DNA from: Sedimenticola sp.
GTDB taxonomy: Bacteria; Pseudomonadota; Gammaproteobacteria; Chromatiales; Chromatiaceae
Length of the DNA: 38,542 nucleotides
Assembly (NCBI GenBank): GCA_027024025.1
Contig: JALVTT010000067.1
Span: forward strand, 1 to 38,542
Direction: 5' to 3'
Shown: in pieces, positions 24,354 through 34,593 of the stretch
Layout of the letters: every line of letters begins with the position of its first letter
Position numbering within the stretch: position 1 is the stretch's first letter
The notes under the pieces: model-generated
The model's database searches: none
The model's input: only the letters and a program-made list of their open reading frames with translations
Told to the model about the DNA's origin: nothing
Program-made: the position numbers and the translations under genes

Positions 24354-24548
24354 TTAGGTGTGGAGGCCGCGTGCCTGGGCGCTGAAGCGGTAGGCGTTGC
24401 CGATGCGTTGCGCGGCTTCCTCGTCGCTGCGCTCGCTGATGGTATGGACCGATCCGCAGGCCGTGCACTCGTACCAGGTCTGGCGGGTGTGGAGTTCGAC
24501 GATCTCCTCGGTCTTGGTCATGGGGTGGTCACACTGCGGGCAATGCAT
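24354..24548 (-). CDS. Small zinc-ribbon protein linked to the RNR genes
   Basis: A 64-residue protein with two CxxC knuckles, C3/C6 (MHCPQCDHPM) and C28/C31 (YECTACGSVHTISER), 21 residues apart, a rubredoxin/zinc-ribbon-like arrangement. The C-terminus is a short helix-forming tail. ATG is at 24546-24548 with GAGGAAAA upstream. The start lies only 29 bases after the stop of the second NrdB-like gene, so the two are almost certainly cotranscribed. A metal or redox role with that protein is plausible but unproven. Confidence 0.75.
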   Translation of the reverse strand: MHCPQCDHPMTKTEEIVELHTRQTWYECTACGSVHTISERSDEEAAQRIGNAYRFSAQARGLHT

Positions 24549-24577: not shown

Positions 24578-25642
24578 TCAGTCCCAGCGCAGGCGCCTGC
24601 GGGTGGTGGGGCCGTGGCTGTCCGGTGGCGGCTCGTCCGGCTGGCTGGCCAGCTCGTTGATCCAGGGAAAGGGGTTGCTGGCGCCCCGGTAGGGGCTGGC
24701 CAGGCCGATCTGGGCACAGCGGTAGTTGGCGGTGAAGCGCAGATACTCCTCGAACATGGGGGCGTTCAGGCCCAGGATGCCGCGTGGCATGCTGTCATAG
24801 GCGTACTGGGTGGCGATGTCCACCGCCTCCTCGATCATGTGGCGGGCGGACTGTTTGAAGGTGTCGCCCCACAACTGCGGATTCTCCAGCTTGACCTGGT
24901 TGATCAGATCCACGCCGAAGGCCGCGTGCTGCATCTGGTTGCGCAGGATGTGCTCCAGCAGGCGGGCGGTGCCGCGCATCTTGGCGCGCCGGCCCATGCT
25001 CAGGATCTGGCTGAAGCCCGCGTGCACCATGATGCCGCCGAACACCACATAGAAGGCGATCAGTTCGCGCAGCATGAGCTGGTCGTTGCCCGGGGTGCCG
25101 GTACGGAACTGGGGATCGGCGAGGTGGCGGGTGAAGGGCCGGGCCCAGGCGATCTTGCGTTCGATGGCGGGGACTTCGCGCTGCAGGGAGGCCAGGGTCT
25201 CCGGATCCAGTCCCAGGGCCTCGACGATGTGCCGGTAGGCCAGTTGGTGCAGGCTGTTGTCGAAGGCCTGACGCAGCAGGTACTGACGGCAGTCGCGGTT
25301 GCCGATGTGGCGGTAGATGGCCAGCACCAGGTTGTCCGCGATCAGGGTCTCGGCGACCAGAAAGAAGGCCAGGCTGCGCTGGAAGATGCCGCGTTCGTCC
25401 CGGCTCAGGGCGTGCGGGTCCTGCCAGCTGCGGACGTCCTCGGACAGGTCGGTGTCCAGTGGGTTCCACTGGCTGCGCACCGCGATGTGCAGGCGTTCGC
25501 GGGCCCAGGCGTGGTCGGCGGGGCCGAGCAGCGTGTCCCGCCCGGGCTCGCCGTGTGTCTGATAGGGGTCCTGCGGTTCCGCGATCCGTGTGTGCGCGGT
25601 ACGGGCGGCGTGAAGTCCCGTGCTTGTGCGGTGGTTCAGCAT
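24578..25642 (-). CDS. NrdB-like (R2) paralog lacking most metal ligands
   Basis: A 354-residue protein clearly homologous to the canonical NrdB encoded next to it: WNPLDTDLSEDV, SQILSMGRR.KMRGTA and AFGVDLINQV all align without gaps around the active site. E. coli R2 binds its di-iron centre with D84, E115, H118, E204, E238 and H241. The aligned residues here are E98, N129, H132, G202, Q236 and H239, so three of four carboxylates are gone. The Asp before the fifth ligand, part of the radical-transfer chain, is N235. The radical tyrosine position keeps Tyr (Y136). The C-terminus ends LRWD, like LKWD of the partner, but no tyrosine occurs in the last 30 residues. It probably cannot build a normal cofactor. 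ATG at 25640-25642 has AAGGGGG upstream. Confidence 0.88.
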   Translation of the reverse strand: MLNHRTSTGLHAARTAHTRIAEPQDPYQTHGEPGRDTLLGPADHAWARERLHIAVRSQWNPLDTDLSEDVRSWQDPHALSRDERGIFQRSLAFFLVAETLIADNLVLAIYRHIGNRDCRQYLLRQAFDNSLHQLAYRHIVEALGLDPETLASLQREVPAIERKIAWARPFTRHLADPQFRTGTPGNDQLMLRELIAFYVVFGGIMVHAGFSQILSMGRRAKMRGTARLLEHILRNQMQHAAFGVDLINQVKLENPQLWGDTFKQSARHMIEEAVDIATQYAYDSMPRGILGLNAPMFEEYLRFTANYRCAQIGLASPYRGASNPFPWINELASQPDEPPPDSHGPTTRRRLRWD

Positions 25643-25802
25643 GGTGTTCCCCCTTGTGGGCCCGTCCTTCAGCCCTTGTGTGTCTGGTGCCGGAGTGACC
25701 CCGATCCCCCTGGGTGGTGGTCTATGGACATCTGATAATGTCTGGCGAGAGTTCCCGGGGCCCCTCCGGCATTGATCGTTGCCGGTCAGCGTGTGCCGGC
25801 CG

Positions 25803-27002
25803 TCAGTCCCATTTCAGCGCGCCGCCGGTCTGGTATTCGGTGACGCGGGTCTCGAAGAAGTTCTTCTCCTTGCGCAGGTTGGCCTGCTCGTCCAGCCAGG
25901 GCAGGGTGGGCTCGGCGCCCGGGAAGGGCTCGTCCAGGCCCAGGCTGCGCGCGCGGCGGTTGGCGATGAAGCGGAACTGGCCGATGTGGTCTTCCTTGCT
26001 GTAGCCCAGGATGGGGTCGCGCAGGATGTAGCCGGCGTAGTCGGCCTCGGCCGCCTCGCACTCCTCCCACATCAGGGCCAGCGCCTTGGGCTCGGGGCGG
26101 ATGTCCTCCTCGAACATGATCTGCTTGGCCACGCGGATGCCGAAGGAGGCATGCAGCACCTCGTCGCGCATGATGTACTGCAGCTGTTCGGCGGTGCCCT
26201 TCATCAGGCCACGGCGCTGCAGGGCGAAGATGGGCGAGAAGCCGTTGTAGAACCAGCAGCCCTCGAACACGCCCGCGAAGAAGATGTAGGCCATCAGGAA
26301 GTTGTGCAGCTCGTCGCGGTCGTTGAGGTCGATGTCGGCGCGCAGCACCGAGGCCAGGCGCCGGTTGGCGAGCTGGATCTTGCCGTTGATCTCGGGCACC
26401 ACGCGGTAGCGGTTGTAGATCTCGCCCTGGTCCAGGCCGATGGACTCGATGCAGTGCTGGTAGGTCCAGGTGTGCAGGGATTCCTCGTACACCTGGCGCG
26501 CCTGGTAGATCTGCAGCTCGGGGGCGGACATTTTCTCCATCACCGCCAGGCCGATGTTGCGCATCGCCAGGATGTCGGAGGTGGTGAGGTAGGACAGCAC
26601 GTTCTCATACACGTGGCGCTCTTCCAGCGTCAGCTTGTGGTGATAGTCGTGCACGTCCTGGTTCATGTTGATGTCCAGGGGCGTCCAGTGGTTGCGGTTG
26701 GCGTTGAGGAAATACTCCCAGGCCCAGGGATATTTGAACGGCGCCAGCTGGTTGATGTCGGTCAGGCCGTTGACCACGCGCTTGTCTTCCGGGTTGACCG
26801 GCTTGTGGTCCAGATCCGGGGTGTGCAGCGGCTGGCCGTGCATCTCCGCCTCGATGCCGGACAGCGCGGTGGGCGGCGTCTGCGGCGCGGCGCCCTGTCC
26901 GTCCTGCAGGGGATTGGCCTGGGGCGGCAGTTCGCGTTCGGCCGGCTGGGCCGGCTCGGCGGCCGGTTGGATGGGGCTCAGTGGATCGTCCCAGTTCAGC
27001 AT
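25803..27002 (-). CDS. nrdB: Ribonucleotide reductase class I beta subunit NrdB
   Basis: NrdB (R2) holds the metal centre and the radical that starts ribonucleotide reduction by NrdA. The 399-residue protein has every ligand: D143 (TTSDILAMRN), E174 and H177 (YEESLHTWTY), E247 (GVFEGCWFYNGF), E281 and H284 (MRDEVLHASFG). Y181 is the radical tyrosine. D280 is kept for radical transfer. The C-terminal tail TEYQTGGALKWD has the tyrosine used in long-range radical transfer and the R1-docking end. The N-terminus has a proline/glutamine-rich lead of about 70 residues. ATG at 27000-27002 follows AAGGAG. Downstream of nrdA by 146 bases holding an inverted-repeat element. Confidence 0.96.
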   Translation of the reverse strand: MLNWDDPLSPIQPAAEPAQPAERELPPQANPLQDGQGAAPQTPPTALSGIEAEMHGQPLHTPDLDHKPVNPEDKRVVNGLTDINQLAPFKYPWAWEYFLNANRNHWTPLDINMNQDVHDYHHKLTLEERHVYENVLSYLTTSDILAMRNIGLAVMEKMSAPELQIYQARQVYEESLHTWTYQHCIESIGLDQGEIYNRYRVVPEINGKIQLANRRLASVLRADIDLNDRDELHNFLMAYIFFAGVFEGCWFYNGFSPIFALQRRGLMKGTAEQLQYIMRDEVLHASFGIRVAKQIMFEEDIRPEPKALALMWEECEAAEADYAGYILRDPILGYSKEDHIGQFRFIANRRARSLGLDEPFPGAEPTLPWLDEQANLRKEKNFFETRVTEYQTGGALKWD

Positions 27003-27148: not shown

Positions 27149-30049
27149 TTACTGACAGGCCTCGCAGTCCGGATCGAGGATGCTGCACGCCTTGGGCGCG
27201 GCGCTGCCGGTGTCGGCCTTGAGTCCGAAGCCGCCCGCGGCCTGTGCGCGCCCCTGGCCGCCCGCGGTGGATTTCTCCATGTGGGTGGCGCCCATGGAAC
27301 GCAGGTAGTAGGTGGTCTTGAGACCGCGCACCCAGGCCAGCTTGTAGAGGTTGTCGAGCTTCTTGCCCGAGGGCTCGGACATGTAGAGGTTGAGGCTCTG
27401 CGCCTGGTCGATCCATTTCTGGCGCCGGGCCCCGGCCTCGACCAGCCAGCGCGGGTCGATCTCGAAGGCGGTGGCGTAGAGCTGCTTGAGATCGTCCGGC
27501 ACCCGGTCGATGGACTGCAGCGAGCCGTCGAAATACTTGAGGTCGTTGACCATCACCTCGTCCCACAGGCCGCGTTCCTTGAGGTCGCGCACCAGGTAGG
27601 GGTTGACCACGGTGAACTCGCCCGAGAGGTTGGATTTGACGAACAGGTTCTGGTAGGTCGGCTCGATGGACTGGCTGACCCCGCAGATGTTGGAGATGGT
27701 CGCGGTCGGTGCGATCGCCATGGTGTTGGAGTTGCGCATGCCCACGGTCCTGACCCGCTCGCGCAGGCTGTCCCAGTCCAGGGTATGGCTCAGGTCGGCC
27801 TGCAGATAGGGGCCGCGCTCGGCGGCCAGCAGCTTGAGCGAGTCGATCGGCAGGATGCCCTGGCTCCACAGCGAGCCCTCGAAGCTGGAGTATTTGCCGC
27901 GTTCCTCGGCCAGGTCGGTGGAGGCCTTGATGGTGTAGTAGCTGACCGCCTCCATGGTGCGGTCGGCGAAGTCCACGGCCTCGGTGCTGGCATAGGGCAG
28001 GCGCATCTTGTACAGCGCGTCCTGGAAGCCCATGATGCCCAGTCCCACCGGGCGGTGGCGCAGGTTGGAATTGCGCGCCTGCGGCACCGAGTAGTAGTTG
28101 TACTCGATCACGTTGTCGAGCATGCGCATGGCGGTGTCGATGGTCTTTTCCAGCTTGGCCATGTCCAGGCCCTGGCCCTCGATCACGTGCGCGGCGATGT
28201 TGACCGAGCCCAGGTTGCACACCGCGATCTCGTGGTCGTTGGTGTGCAGGGTGATCTCGGTGCACAGGTTGGAGGAGTGCACCACGCCGACGTGCTGGTT
28301 GGTGTAGCGGATGTTGCACGGGTCCTTGAAGGTGATCCAGGGATGCCCGGTCTCGAACAGCATGCCCAGCATCTTGCGCCACAGATCGACCGCCTTGACC
28401 TTTTTGTGCACGCCCAGCTCGCCGCGCTCGGCCATGGCCTCGTAGCGCTCGTAGGCCTCGCGGAAGGCGCTGCCGGTCAGGTCGTGCAGTTCCGGGGTCT
28501 CGTTGGGCGAGAACAGGGTCCAGTCGCCATCCTCGGCCACGCGCTGCATGAACAGGTCCGGGATCCAGTTGGCGGTGTTCATGTCGTGGGTGCGGCGGCG
28601 TTCGTCGCCGGTGTTCTTGCGCAGGTCGAGGAATTCCTCGATATCGATGTGCCAGGTCTCCAGATAGGCGCACACCGCGCCCTTGCGCTTGCCGCCCTGG
28701 TTGACCGCCACCGCGGTGTCGTTGGCCACCTTGAGGAAGGGCACCACGCCCTGGCTCTTGCCGTTGGTGCCCTTGATGTGCGAGCCGAGGCCGCGCACCC
28801 GGGTCCAGTCGTTGCCCAGGCCGCCGGCGAACTTGGACAGCAGGGCGTTGTCGCGGATCGCGCTGTAGATGCCGTCCAGGTCGTCCGGCACCGTGGTCAG
28901 GTAGCAGGACGAGAGCTGCGGACGCAGGGTGCCGGAGTTGAACAGGGTCGGCGTGCTGCTCATGAAGTCGAAGCTCGAGAGCAGCTCGTAGAACTCGATG
29001 GCGCGGCCTTCGCGGTCGATCTCGTTGATCGCCAGGCCCATGGCCACGCGCATGAAGAAGGCCTGCGGCAGCTCGAAGCGCACATCGTCGGCGGAGTGGA
29101 TGAAGTAGCGGTCGTACAGGGTCTGCAGGCCGAGATAGGTGAACTGCAGGTCGCGCTCGGGACGGAAGGCGCGGCTGAGGCGCGCCAGGTCATACTGGCC
29201 GAGGCGCGGGTCGAGCAGTTCCAGCTCGATGGCGCGCTTGATATAGGCCTCGAAGTATTCGCCATAGACCTCGCCCATCTCGGCCTGGGTGGCGACCTCG
29301 CTGCCCAGGTCGAGGAAGCCCAGGGCCTCGCGGCGCAGATTGTCCATGAGCAGGCGCGCCGCGGCATAGGAATAGTTGGGCTCCTGGTCGATCAGGGTGC
29401 GCGCGCTCATCACCAGGGCCTTGGAGACATCCTCTTCCTTGACCCCGTCGAACAGGTTGCGGCAGGTGTCGTCCAGGATGGTCTGGGCGGACACGGCCTC
29501 CAGGCCCTCGCAGGCCTCCTCCACCAGGCGGCGCAGGCGCGCGATGTCCAGCGGACGGCTGCTGCCGTCGGCCAGGGTGACGTTGACGATATGGGCCTCT
29601 TCCTGCCCGCCCTGGGCGGCGGCCTCCTCGGCGCGCTTGCGGGCCTGCTCCTCGCGATACAGGACATAGGCTCGCGCCACCTTGTGTTCGCCGTTGCGCA
29701 TCAGGGCCAGTTCGACCTGGTCCTGCACATCCTCGATATGGACGGTGCCGCCGGCCGGGTTGCGCCGCCGCAGGGCCTCGACCACCTGCCGGGTCAGTTC
29801 GGCCACGGTGTCGTGGACCCGCGCCGAGGCCGCGGCGCTGCCGCCCTCGACCGCCAGGAAGGCCTTGGTCATGGCCACGGCGATCTTGTTGCCGTCGAAG
29901 GCGGTGACCTTGCCGTTGCGGCGGATGATGCGCATCTCGCCCGGCGTGCTGGCCTGGATCTCGGCGGGCGCGCCGCGCGAGTCGGCGGTGGGGGGGATGG
30001 CGATGTCTTCGGCTGAAAGGTCCGGTGACCCGGTCACGTCAATGCCCAT
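27149..30049 (-). CDS. nrdA: Ribonucleotide reductase class I alpha subunit NrdA
   Basis: NrdA (R1) reduces ribonucleoside diphosphates. The 966-residue protein has an N-terminal ATP-cone (MRIIRRNGKVTAFDGNKI near residue 39), a second cone-like region (about 150-235), and the ten-stranded barrel. The active-site cysteine pair begins at C382 (SSCYLTT); the catalytic loop N594-L-C596-T-E598 fits the N-x-C-x-E pattern. TPTLFNSG is also typical. The C-terminal CEAC is the redox pair re-reduced by thioredoxin. Length and dual cones match the Pseudomonas type. ATG at 30047-30049 has AGGAGG six bases upstream; the frame is open further upstream but that part is the leader. It heads the operon. Confidence 0.96.
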   Translation of the reverse strand: MGIDVTGSPDLSAEDIAIPPTADSRGAPAEIQASTPGEMRIIRRNGKVTAFDGNKIAVAMTKAFLAVEGGSAAASARVHDTVAELTRQVVEALRRRNPAGGTVHIEDVQDQVELALMRNGEHKVARAYVLYREEQARKRAEEAAAQGGQEEAHIVNVTLADGSSRPLDIARLRRLVEEACEGLEAVSAQTILDDTCRNLFDGVKEEDVSKALVMSARTLIDQEPNYSYAAARLLMDNLRREALGFLDLGSEVATQAEMGEVYGEYFEAYIKRAIELELLDPRLGQYDLARLSRAFRPERDLQFTYLGLQTLYDRYFIHSADDVRFELPQAFFMRVAMGLAINEIDREGRAIEFYELLSSFDFMSSTPTLFNSGTLRPQLSSCYLTTVPDDLDGIYSAIRDNALLSKFAGGLGNDWTRVRGLGSHIKGTNGKSQGVVPFLKVANDTAVAVNQGGKRKGAVCAYLETWHIDIEEFLDLRKNTGDERRRTHDMNTANWIPDLFMQRVAEDGDWTLFSPNETPELHDLTGSAFREAYERYEAMAERGELGVHKKVKAVDLWRKMLGMLFETGHPWITFKDPCNIRYTNQHVGVVHSSNLCTEITLHTNDHEIAVCNLGSVNIAAHVIEGQGLDMAKLEKTIDTAMRMLDNVIEYNYYSVPQARNSNLRHRPVGLGIMGFQDALYKMRLPYASTEAVDFADRTMEAVSYYTIKASTDLAEERGKYSSFEGSLWSQGILPIDSLKLLAAERGPYLQADLSHTLDWDSLRERVRTVGMRNSNTMAIAPTATISNICGVSQSIEPTYQNLFVKSNLSGEFTVVNPYLVRDLKERGLWDEVMVNDLKYFDGSLQSIDRVPDDLKQLYATAFEIDPRWLVEAGARRQKWIDQAQSLNLYMSEPSGKKLDNLYKLAWVRGLKTTYYLRSMGATHMEKSTAGGQGRAQAAGGFGLKADTGSAAPKACSILDPDCEACQ

Positions 30050-30204
30050 GGGGCTCCTCCTGAATCCTGATGTTCTGATCGTGGGGACGGCCGTTTTGCA
30101 CGACCTCGATGGGTTCCCCTGGTGACGCTGTCTGCCGGCCCGGGAAGGGGCCGGTCCTGTGCCTGGCGCCGGCTGGGGGTGGATGCTGCTCAATGTCCCG
30201 TGAA

Positions 30205-31073: not shown

Positions 31074-31074
<1 letters not shown>
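31050..31074 (+). terminator. Rho-independent terminator
   Basis: A nine-pair stem GCCGCGACC / GGTCGCGGC with a two-base loop is followed by five T. It ends the repeat-protein transcript. The last T of the tract is also the first base of the stop codon complement of the convergent kinase gene, so the two genes almost touch. Confidence 0.85.
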
Positions 31075-32780
<1,706 letters not shown>

Positions 32781-32793
32781 GGGATCGGGTTTT

Positions 32794-32925
32794 ACCACAA
32801 AGGGCGCGAAGGGCACGAAGATGGGTGGCGTGTCGTCGTTCGCATCTCCACTCCGGATTTGCCCGCGGGCGGGAGGAAGGGGCGACCAGATCGTCCCTTC
32901 GTGTTTTTCGCGCCCCTTGCGGTTA
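32794..32925. repeat. CACGAAG-type inverted-repeat element, copy B
   Basis: Left arm 32794-32820 (ACCACAAAGGGCGCG, then AAGGGCACGAAG) and right arm 32895-32925 (CCCTTCGTGTTTTTCGCG, then CCCCTTGCGGTTA) are inverted copies around a 74-base spacer. It fills the gap between narK and the kinase gene on the minus strand. No promoter stands out inside. Confidence 0.7.
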
Positions 32926-32935
32926 CCGCTATCGT

Positions 32936-34405
32936 TTATTTGACATCGATCATCTGCACGCTGCCGTCGGGCATGATCTCGGCCATGGCGCCCTCGGGTT
33001 CTTCGAGCACGAACAGGATCAGCAGGAGCACGCAGCCGGAGACGGCGCCGATGAACAGGAAGAACTGGTCGTAGTCGAGCAGCGAGTTGACGGTTAGGAA
33101 CAGCACCGCGCCCACGTTGCCGAAGGCGCCGGCCATGCCGGCGATCTGGCCCGTCATGCGGCGCTGGATCAACGGCACCATGGCATAGACCGCGCCGGAG
33201 CCGGCCTTGGAGAAGATGCCGCCGACCAGGGTCATGCCCACCACCATCCAGACCGGCCAGCCCTTGTCCACCATGCCCAGCACCAGGAAGGCGCCGGTGA
33301 TGCCCGCGAACACGATGATCAGCGTCAGCTTGCGCCCGATGCGGTCGCTCAGCCAGCCGCCGCCGGGGCGGGCGAACAGGTTGAGGAAGGGGTAGACGCC
33401 GGCGAGCAGGGCGGCGGTCACCTTGGACAGACCGAACCAGTCCACATAGAACATGGCGAGCATGGAGACCACCGCCAGCTCGGTGCCGAAGGTGACCAGA
33501 TAGGCCCAGTCCAGCACCGCCACCTGCTTGAACTTGTAGCGGTGCAGTTCGGGCACCGGCTCCTTCAGCACATGGGCGTTGATGTGCCACACCTTCCAGC
33601 TCTGGGCCAGGAACAGCGCCGCCAGCGCCAGGTAGACGATGTCGGTCACCGCCCAGTCGATGAGTCCCATCCTGGCCGGCGACAGCTTCCAGGTGAGCAG
33701 CGCCAGGGCCAGGTAGAGGGGCACGTTCATCAGGATGTAGAGGGCCAGGTCGCCGGGGCTGGTGACCTCCATGGCGCCGGTCTTCTTGGGCTTGAAGTAG
33801 GTCGAGCCCTTGGGCGTGTTGCGCACCGAGAAGTAGTACAGCGCGCCGTAGGCGATGGCCACCAGGCTGGCCGCGGTGAAGGCCCAGCGCCAGCCGTCGG
33901 GGCCGCCGATCCAGGCCGCGACAAAGGGCAGGGTCATGGCCGCGCCGGCCGACCCGAAGTTGCCCCAGCCGGCGTAGATGCCCTGGGCGATGCCGGTCTG
34001 GCGCGCCGGGAACCATTCGCTGATCATGCGGATGCCCACCACGAAGCCGGCGCCGATGAAGCCGGAGAGAAAGCGCGCCAGGGCCAGGGTCTGGTAGCTG
34101 TCGGCCCAGGCGAAGGCGATGCTGATGGCGCCGCCCAGGATCAGGATGGCGCTGAACAGGATCCGCGGCCCGTATTTGTCCACCAGCATGCCGACGACGA
34201 TACGCGCCGGGATGGTCATGGCCACGTTGAGAATGAGCAGTACCTTGGCCTGCTGGCCGCTGAGCGCCAGCGCCTCCTTGATGAAGGGCATCATGGGGCC
34301 GAGCCCCAGCCATACCACAAAGGTGAGGAAGAAGGCCATCCAGGTCAGGTGCAGGATGCGGGTCTTGCCGGAAAAGGAGAACAGCTCGATCTTTTGCGCG
34401 GACAT
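32936..34405 (-). CDS. narK: Nitrate/nitrite transporter, NarK/NNP family
   Basis: A 489-residue major-facilitator permease with 12 hydrophobic segments. Both nitrate signature motifs are seen: GWGNFGSAGAAMTLP in the first half and GMAGAFGNVGAVLFL in the second. The substrate-binding arginines of the family are matched by TIPARIVVG and LFARPGGGW. In this locus it most likely imports nitrate for assimilation. ATG at 34403-34405 is chosen because the start site of the sigma-54-like promoter would fall near 34436, leaving GGAG and a short leader. An ATG at 34433 would be at the start site itself. Confidence 0.93.
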   Translation of the reverse strand: MSAQKIELFSFSGKTRILHLTWMAFFLTFVVWLGLGPMMPFIKEALALSGQQAKVLLILNVAMTIPARIVVGMLVDKYGPRILFSAILILGGAISIAFAWADSYQTLALARFLSGFIGAGFVVGIRMISEWFPARQTGIAQGIYAGWGNFGSAGAAMTLPFVAAWIGGPDGWRWAFTAASLVAIAYGALYYFSVRNTPKGSTYFKPKKTGAMEVTSPGDLALYILMNVPLYLALALLTWKLSPARMGLIDWAVTDIVYLALAALFLAQSWKVWHINAHVLKEPVPELHRYKFKQVAVLDWAYLVTFGTELAVVSMLAMFYVDWFGLSKVTAALLAGVYPFLNLFARPGGGWLSDRIGRKLTLIIVFAGITGAFLVLGMVDKGWPVWMVVGMTLVGGIFSKAGSGAVYAMVPLIQRRMTGQIAGMAGAFGNVGAVLFLTVNSLLDYDQFFLFIGAVSGCVLLLILFVLEEPEGAMAEIMPDGSVQMIDVK

Positions 34406-34446
34406 CTGGGTACGACTCCATGACTTCGGTTTCATTGCCCCTTTCC

Positions 34447-34462
34447 AGCAGTTTCTGTGCCA
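34447..34462 (-). promoter_or_regulatory. Sigma-54-type promoter of narK
   Basis: On the minus strand TGGCACAGAAACTGCT keeps the two invariant pairs, GG and GC, at the required ten-base separation (TGGCAC at -24, CTGCT at -12). It predicts a start near 34436. It needs an activator such as NtrC. Confidence 0.5.
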
Positions 34463-34593
34463 GCGCCCCGGGCAGGGCCCGGCAGGCGCCGCCAGCCCGT
34501 TGAAAACCGGCATATCCGCATGAAATCCGGGGCTTTGACTCTGGCCTGCCGGTAATCAAGAACATCCGAATATGCGAATGCGCCGCTCGTTAT

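Follow-up and report, generated by a model that had tools for sequence, protein, structure and literature searches.

Why would a bacterium keep, behind the genes of a class I ribonucleotide reductase (RNR), a second small-subunit gene whose product has lost most of its metal-binding carboxylates? We addressed this question in a 38,542-nt contig of Sedimenticola sp. (GenBank assembly GCA_027024025.1, contig JALVTT010000067.1; hereafter the window, meaning this whole stretch), in which the minus strand reads nrdA, nrdB, an RNA element, the gene for the second small subunit (second R2) and a Zn-ribbon-like ORF (Table 1). The window NrdA is the sole large-subunit match in its genome. A pattern scan, whose totals lie close to those of shuffled sequence (2 versus 0.8 and 4 versus 3.8), revealed one strong promoter-like site (11 of 12 matches) upstream of nrdA; terminator-like sites were absent from the minus strand between nrdA and the second R2. 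The codon-position GC of the second R2 is gene-like (0.678, 0.449 and 0.910). The Zn-ribbon-like ORF carries a CxxC...CxxC pattern and has no Pfam match above cut-off; similar ORFs occur near the nrd operon in both the window genus and the sister genus g77. Upstream of nrdA, a 1163-aa ORF on the minus strand (31074-34565) contains PP2C-like and protein kinase domains.

Table 1. Positions of the features discussed, in window coordinates
Feature	Coordinates	Strand	Remarks
NrdA ORF	27149..30193	-	two ATP-cone stretches; 1014 aa counted from TTG, start tentative
Canonical NrdB (A lineage)	25803..27002	-	399 aa, all metal ligands, tail EYQTGGALKWD
Cloverleaf-like RNA element, conserved, between nrdB and second R2	25685..25775	-	91 nt
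GGGGG, ribosome-binding-site-like, 6 bases 5' of second-R2 ATG	25649..25653	-	inferred from sequence
Second R2 (metal-dead R2 homologue, B lineage)	24578..25642	-	354 aa + stop
Codons 285-311 of second R2: MPRGILGLN loop and next helix	24710..24790	-	best kept in degenerate R2s
Codons 351-354 of second R2: C-terminal LRWD, candidate NrdA-docking end	24581..24592	-	
Zn-ribbon-like ORF, 64 aa, 3' of second R2	24354..24548	-	

The second R2 matches Pfam Ribonuc_red_sm (1.7e-55), and its best NCBIfam model is PRK07209 (370 bits, cut-off 309); the NrdF model TIGR04171 gave 29.7 bits (cut-off 355). Alignment with E. coli K-12 NrdB places E98, N129, H132, G202, Q236 and H239 at D84, E115, H118, E204, E238 and H241, and Y136, N235 and W59 at Y122, D237 and W48, respectively. 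Three of the four metal carboxylates are lost (E115N, E204G, E238Q), D84 is replaced by Glu, and both His ligands and the radical-site Tyr are kept; the protein thus lacks the six-ligand set of a catalytic class I R2. The radical relay is also incomplete, since W48 is kept but D237 is replaced by Asn and the tail, RRLRWD, has no Tyr. The initial annotation had the coordinates and these residues right, including the lost carboxylates and radical-chain Asp, the retained Y136, the LRWD end and the missing tail Tyr. It had also described the two window R2s as aligning without gaps around every motif, but BLASTP places a 4-residue gap beside G202 of the second R2 and E247 of NrdB. The pairing of G202 with E204 is safe because intact R2s of the B lineage, to which we assign the protein below, align there without gaps.

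AF2 predicted an R2 fold for the second R2 (pLDDT 79.7; all other sequences in its input alignment were intact R2 homologues), with Z 40.5 to Chlamydia NrdB (4d8f). Together with the Ribonuc_red_sm domain, this predicted fold identifies the protein as a class I R2 homologue. Among the matches listed, the solved structures closest in fold and sequence are those of Chlamydia trachomatis NrdB and the R2 of 6y2n, although several such entries are metal-loaded catalytic R2s. The sequence match to 1jk0_B (yeast small chain 2), which we take to be Rnr4, is weak (E 7.2e-06), and the absence of Rnr4 from the best 50 structure matches of the model excludes nothing.

The second R2 had been regarded as a paralog of the neighbouring NrdB, and our data indicate a different origin. 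BLASTP gave only 31% identity over 302 positions between the two window R2s, whereas intact B-type R2s from other genera of the same family match the second R2 over its full length with 53-57% identity. These identities and the trees rule out a recent duplication of the neighbouring nrdB and place the second R2 in another R2 lineage (B). Five of the eight genomes of the sister genus g77 with a match (G207, G208, G210, G212 and G215; further g77 genomes may be among the 41 genomes without a match) carry nrdA-nrdB(A)-nrdB(B), with all ligands present in both R2s, and the RNA element stands between nrdB(A) and nrdB(B) in these intact operons. Of the remaining three, G213 has a degenerate B-type R2, and the B-type R2s of G211 and G214 are cut by contig ends; in G211, nrdA is followed by the RNA element and the B gene, and the A gene is missing between them.

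Phylogenetic analyses recovered the A-type R2s of g77 and the window genus as sisters (100/98), and their NrdAs join with an SH-aLRT of 90. The five second R2s of the window genus form one clade (100/99) after three tree rows were dropped (G045_A, a duplicate of G013_A, and the G082 protein), but the five-protein fork reached only 86/40 with these rows, including the very long G082 row, in place; both R2 trees comprise bacterial R2s only and had long branches flagged. Because of the g77 synteny, the sister A-type R2s, the joined NrdAs and the five-protein clade, the tandem of nrdA and two R2s of different lineages most likely existed before the two genera separated; the window second R2 is then the degenerate descendant of an R2 whose relatives keep the full metal site.

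The B lineage was also followed beyond these genera. An alignment query against a contig collection yielded 115 loci, of which 80 were kept, and 79 of the 80 B-type R2s read DEHYEDEH at positions 98/129/132/136/202/235/236/239 (numbering of the second R2, used for all strings below). A same-strand nrdA is present in 53 of the kept loci, the B-type frame starts less than 600 bases behind nrdA in 37, and an A-type R2 is also present in 4. A single-protein query found no relative in this collection, which may omit records close to the window genome. Two loci have unusual frames: in L074 (3474-4781), a B-type NrdB downstream of nrdA consists of two in-frame pieces split by one stop codon, and in L022 (187-2526; G029), a B-type NrdB lies in a 780-aa open frame with its matching halves about 0.95 kb apart, suggesting an intein.

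Within the window genus, a second R2 lies behind nrdB in five of the eight genomes (G000, G003-G006); in the other three (G001, G002 and G007) a second R2 was not found and the A-type R2 was the only one detected. The window string is ENHYGNQH, and those of its genus relatives are DERAKDEH, TERVKDEH, DERCGDAH and DERCEDAH, so the set of lost ligands differs in each of the five genomes. All four relatives have lost H118, Y122 and the C-terminal tail, whereas the window protein keeps H118, Y122 and the LRWD end. Conservation of the Asn/Gly/Gln set had been proposed as a check; the set is absent from all other positional homologues, including the degenerate B-type R2 of G213 (DSHCADLH), and is also unlike the VPK or QSK sets of class Ie. 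Despite these losses, frames of at least 382 aa, upstream extension counted, are open in all five genomes; G003 and G004 each show a single stop at the C-terminus, the profile match there extending beyond the frame by 1 and 4 codons, respectively.

Degenerate R2s are not confined to the window genus and G213. A match was present in 149 genomes, with ligands read only for the loci compared. Inspection of eight genomes of the order with at least two matches outside the window genus (G214 of g77 among them) identified additional degenerate R2s, in genus g62 (G082 and G083) and genus g64 (G086), and full, intact second R2s in G095, G098 and G219. The degenerate R2s of G082 and G083 are on contigs other than those of nrdAB, and the G082 string depends on the alignment (AQH-EHNF versus AKELEHNF). 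In G086, the degenerate R2 adjoins the only large-subunit gene found in the genome, and an intact R2 is on another contig.

Several side observations concern the large subunit and its surroundings. The NrdA beside the degenerate R2 of G086 contains a Hint/LAGLIDADG intein-like insert (L227, 10282-14064), and the intact R2 of that genome adjoins soxB on its separate contig. A lower-scoring RNR large-subunit match is present in G001, G002, G004, G005, G006, G211 and G215, being in two pieces in G005 and G211 and cut by a contig end in G006; in G004 it is the only one, as the nrdA of that genome lies beyond the contig end. No such match was found in G003, G007, G082, G083, G212, G213 or the window genome.

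Taken together, these comparisons lead us to favour, tentatively and at somewhat less than an even chance, the reading that the second R2 is a catalytically dead beta-prime, retained by the adjoining class I RNR as a subunit without a radical role. The comparisons show an ancestral operon that held nrdA and two R2 genes, each from its own lineage; the downstream R2 of the window genus then lost its metal site, its radical relay and most of its tail, but in the one testable species pair purifying selection on the protein persisted. The protein would keep the R2 fold and dock on the NrdA ATP-cones, either by itself or paired with NrdB in a mixed dimer. As expected of a beta-prime, the degenerate metal site is accompanied by an intact R2 within the cell: all eight genomes with a degenerate B-kind R2 (G000, G003-G006, G213, G082 and G083) also encode an intact A-type R2. 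That the subunit is dead and under selection is better supported than the rest of this reading, and docking on the cones is its weakest step. Two points weigh against a dead subunit, namely that the gene was not found in three of the eight window-genus genomes and that the sign of selection presented below comes from one species pair that excludes the window copy.

The main rival to a regulatory subunit is an assembly partner of the kind known from yeast Rnr4, in which the dead R2 would pair with NrdB and help to load or hold the metal-radical cofactor. Rnr4 helps to assemble the cofactor of Rnr2 (PMC11941123, available portion), and the accessible part of PMC3824934 describes PfR2, PfR4 and R1 as interacting in an alpha2-beta-beta' complex. 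The constant presence of an intact A-type R2 and the R2 fold predicted for the second R2 would suit such a heterodimer. However, the two window R2s are just 31% identical, the A-type R2 alone was found in G001, G002 and G007, and the patch best kept among degenerate R2s has no known place in the dimer interface. We consider an assembly role possible but unlikely.

Alternatively, the second R2 may be a redundant protein in slow decay, with residual constraint only against misfolding or toxicity. The loss of different ligands in different lineages and the three genomes in which the gene was not found fit this explanation, as does the rate of ligand loss. Ligands were lost no more than other positions invariant in 106 intact B-type R2s, rows that were picked by having all ligands, so that ligand invariance holds by construction. 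Fisher tests gave p 0.11-1 in seven of the eight proteins and 0.039 in G003, toward better keeping, and preferential ligand loss, as a mark of adaptive removal, was rejected on this basis. Random decay at these sites had been named in advance as a possible refutation; what we found does tell against a new cofactor, but not against a functional dead subunit.

The substitutions equivalent to H118R, Y122C and E238A are common to G003 and G005 and therefore most likely predate the split of these species, which makes the pair suitable for following the gene after metal-site loss. Omega for the G003-G005 second R2 was 0.25 over 326 codons without gaps (2dlnL versus 1: 44.3; range about 0.17-0.37, interpolated), which indicates selection after loss in this pair, not in the window's own copy. 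When time and kappa were kept at their joint-fit values, block-wise omega was 0.64 for the N-terminus, 0.19 for the core, 0.058 for a 38-codon block around the loop and 0.38 for the rest. For the G004-G006 second R2, omega was 0.09, but the synonymous distance of 4.4 is saturated. The value of 0.25 exceeds the 0.035 of nrdB in the same G003-G005 pair, in line with relaxed constraint under slow decay, but an omega of 0.25 after the loss, the long frames open in all five window-genus genomes, one block kept better than the rest and the degenerate R2 that stays beside nrdA in G086 do not agree with it. Plain decay therefore does not fit a protein under purifying selection after metal-site loss in the one testable species pair, and we regard it as doubtful.

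The better-kept block points to where a dead subunit might act. Block 273-330 is better kept than the rest (p<0.05, uncorrected) in six of the eight degenerate proteins, whose rows are related to one another; the exceptions are G213 (0.3) and G083 (0.061). Within this block, loop 285-293 is the best-kept segment (26 of 32 cells over 4 invariant positions, mean 0.81; other segments 0.21-0.61), followed by helix 294-311. L290 of the second R2 aligns in this loop with I297 of E. coli R2, which packs into an ATP-cone pocket of NrdA in the dATP-inhibited alpha4-beta4 complex (PMC11447812, available part). The two ATP-cone stretches of the window NrdA would suit docking of this sort. Since docking of this kind would need the loop and not the metal site, the relay or the tail, a cofactor-free regulatory beta is conceivable. 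Such docking would set the share of enzyme held in an inactive assembly, with no need for a cofactor.

Docking of the second R2 on the NrdA ATP-cones is nevertheless rather unlikely. Intact B-type R2s conserve the loop too, so that it may be kept for folding; GLNAP is missing from the degenerate R2 of G086; and G213 and G083 miss p<0.05 for the block. In addition, NrdB of the A type carries a loop variant of its own (DPILGYS), which makes a second cone-binder unnecessary. A more specific proposal, that the second R2 is a dedicated inhibitory beta, cofactor-free, whose loop plugs the dATP-loaded ATP-cone and whose dose the RNA element may set, is less probable still. If it were true, the dose of this inhibitory beta would tune the strength of the dATP shut-off of RNR.

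The C-terminal end suggests a different way of acting on NrdA, in which the second R2 would be a decoy that docks its LRWD tail on NrdA and blocks NrdB. The window protein ends in LRWD and the degenerate R2 of G213 in LNWD, both without a tail Tyr, and that of G086 ends in LDWK. However, of 17 tail positions that do not vary among intact B-type R2s, the window second R2 (P0002) keeps only 3, and the four genus relatives, G082 and G083 have no such end. Because the four genus relatives lack the tail, LRWD docking cannot be a family-wide function and was rejected as such; a decoy seems improbable for the window protein as well.

A metal-free radical R2 resembling class Ie with a new Asn/Gly/Gln set, one of the possibilities raised by the initial annotation, is barely credible: three Glu ligands are indeed substituted as in class Ie (PMC11846895, available part) and Y136 is kept, but D237 is replaced by Asn, the tail Tyr is missing, no homologue found shares the set, all four genus relatives have lost the radical Tyr, the best NCBIfam model is PRK07209 with NrdF far below its cut-off, ligands were not lost beyond other invariant positions, and NrdI was not found in the genome (0 PF07972 matches, with the control positive in 3 of 14 genomes), so that we reject a new cofactor site.

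The RNA element between the two R2 genes is a candidate for a new regulatory or processing RNA. Its proposed fold resembles a cloverleaf, with a closing stem of 8 bp, and a 3' ACCA is present. In an alignment fitted to this structure, eight pairs spread over several stems have changes on both sides, a number reached by 0 of 500 shuffles; RNAalifold on a plain alignment gave a simpler 19-pair stem, not the cloverleaf, and single-sequence folding z-scores of eight copies ranged from -0.4 to -4.6. A single copy of the element occurs in each of 15 genomes, from three genera, among the 210 of the order (seven of the eight of the window genus, seven of g77, and G220) and in 1 of 369 genomes of a class-wide sample, which is the window's own genome; the filters behind these counts are strict enough to lose weak matches. 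It persists in G001, G002 and G220, where a second R2 was not found, and in G001 a Zn-ribbon ORF lies directly 3' of it. No Rfam family matched the element (weak Rfam matches lie elsewhere), ARAGORN called a tRNA neither in the window nor in five element-bearing loci, and no fitting element was found among the best-ranked literature matches.

Dead R2 partners are already known from yeast and apicomplexans, as far as the available parts of the sources describe them. Yeast Rnr4 is likewise an R2-fold paralogue without a radical cofactor beside a working R2, Rnr2 (PMC11941123, available portion). Unlike Rnr4, which is eukaryotic, the second R2 is bacterial, lies in the same operon as NrdB, belongs to another R2 lineage and has losses that are species-specific; the likeness is drawn from sequence comparison alone. 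The apicomplexan R2_e2 (PfR4) seems to lack the residues for radical formation and interacts with R2 and R1, and it resembles the proteins described here as a second R2 with long branches, an open frame, missing radical residues and one orthodox R2 alongside (PMC3824934, accessible part). By the same account, R2_e2 keeps its C-terminal docking end, which is absent in six of the eight degenerate proteins here.

Among bacteria, no full-length metal-dead R2 was found in the best-ranked open-access matches, and one nearby case is nrdB-S of 'Candidatus Liberibacter asiaticus', an extra nrdB without an active site for which the authors propose a regulatory heterodimer (PMC5154197, available text). 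Its 125-aa copies share over 99% identity with the 3' portion of the long nrdB, whereas the second R2 is full-length, old and diverged, with a ruined metal site; the end of the protein that nrdB-S matches is also the one best kept in degenerate R2s. Class Ie R2s share with the second R2 the substitution of three Glu ligands, but they carry QSK or VPK, derive from class Ib R2s, work with NrdI and convert Tyr to DOPA (PMC11846895, available part), and neither an NrdI partner nor NrdF descent fits the second R2. The second R2 keeps the active-site Tyr that is the DOPA site in class Ie; this Tyr is missing in the four genus relatives.

Our best reading from these sequences is a dead R2 beta-prime that would be comparable in kind to yeast Rnr4, although found in bacteria and probably of repeated origin. 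The metal site was lost in the window genus, again in G213 and in two further genera (g62 and g64), and intact tandems persist. These genomes may thus offer a natural series for learning what use an R2 has without radical-making, and which R2 surface regulates NrdA.
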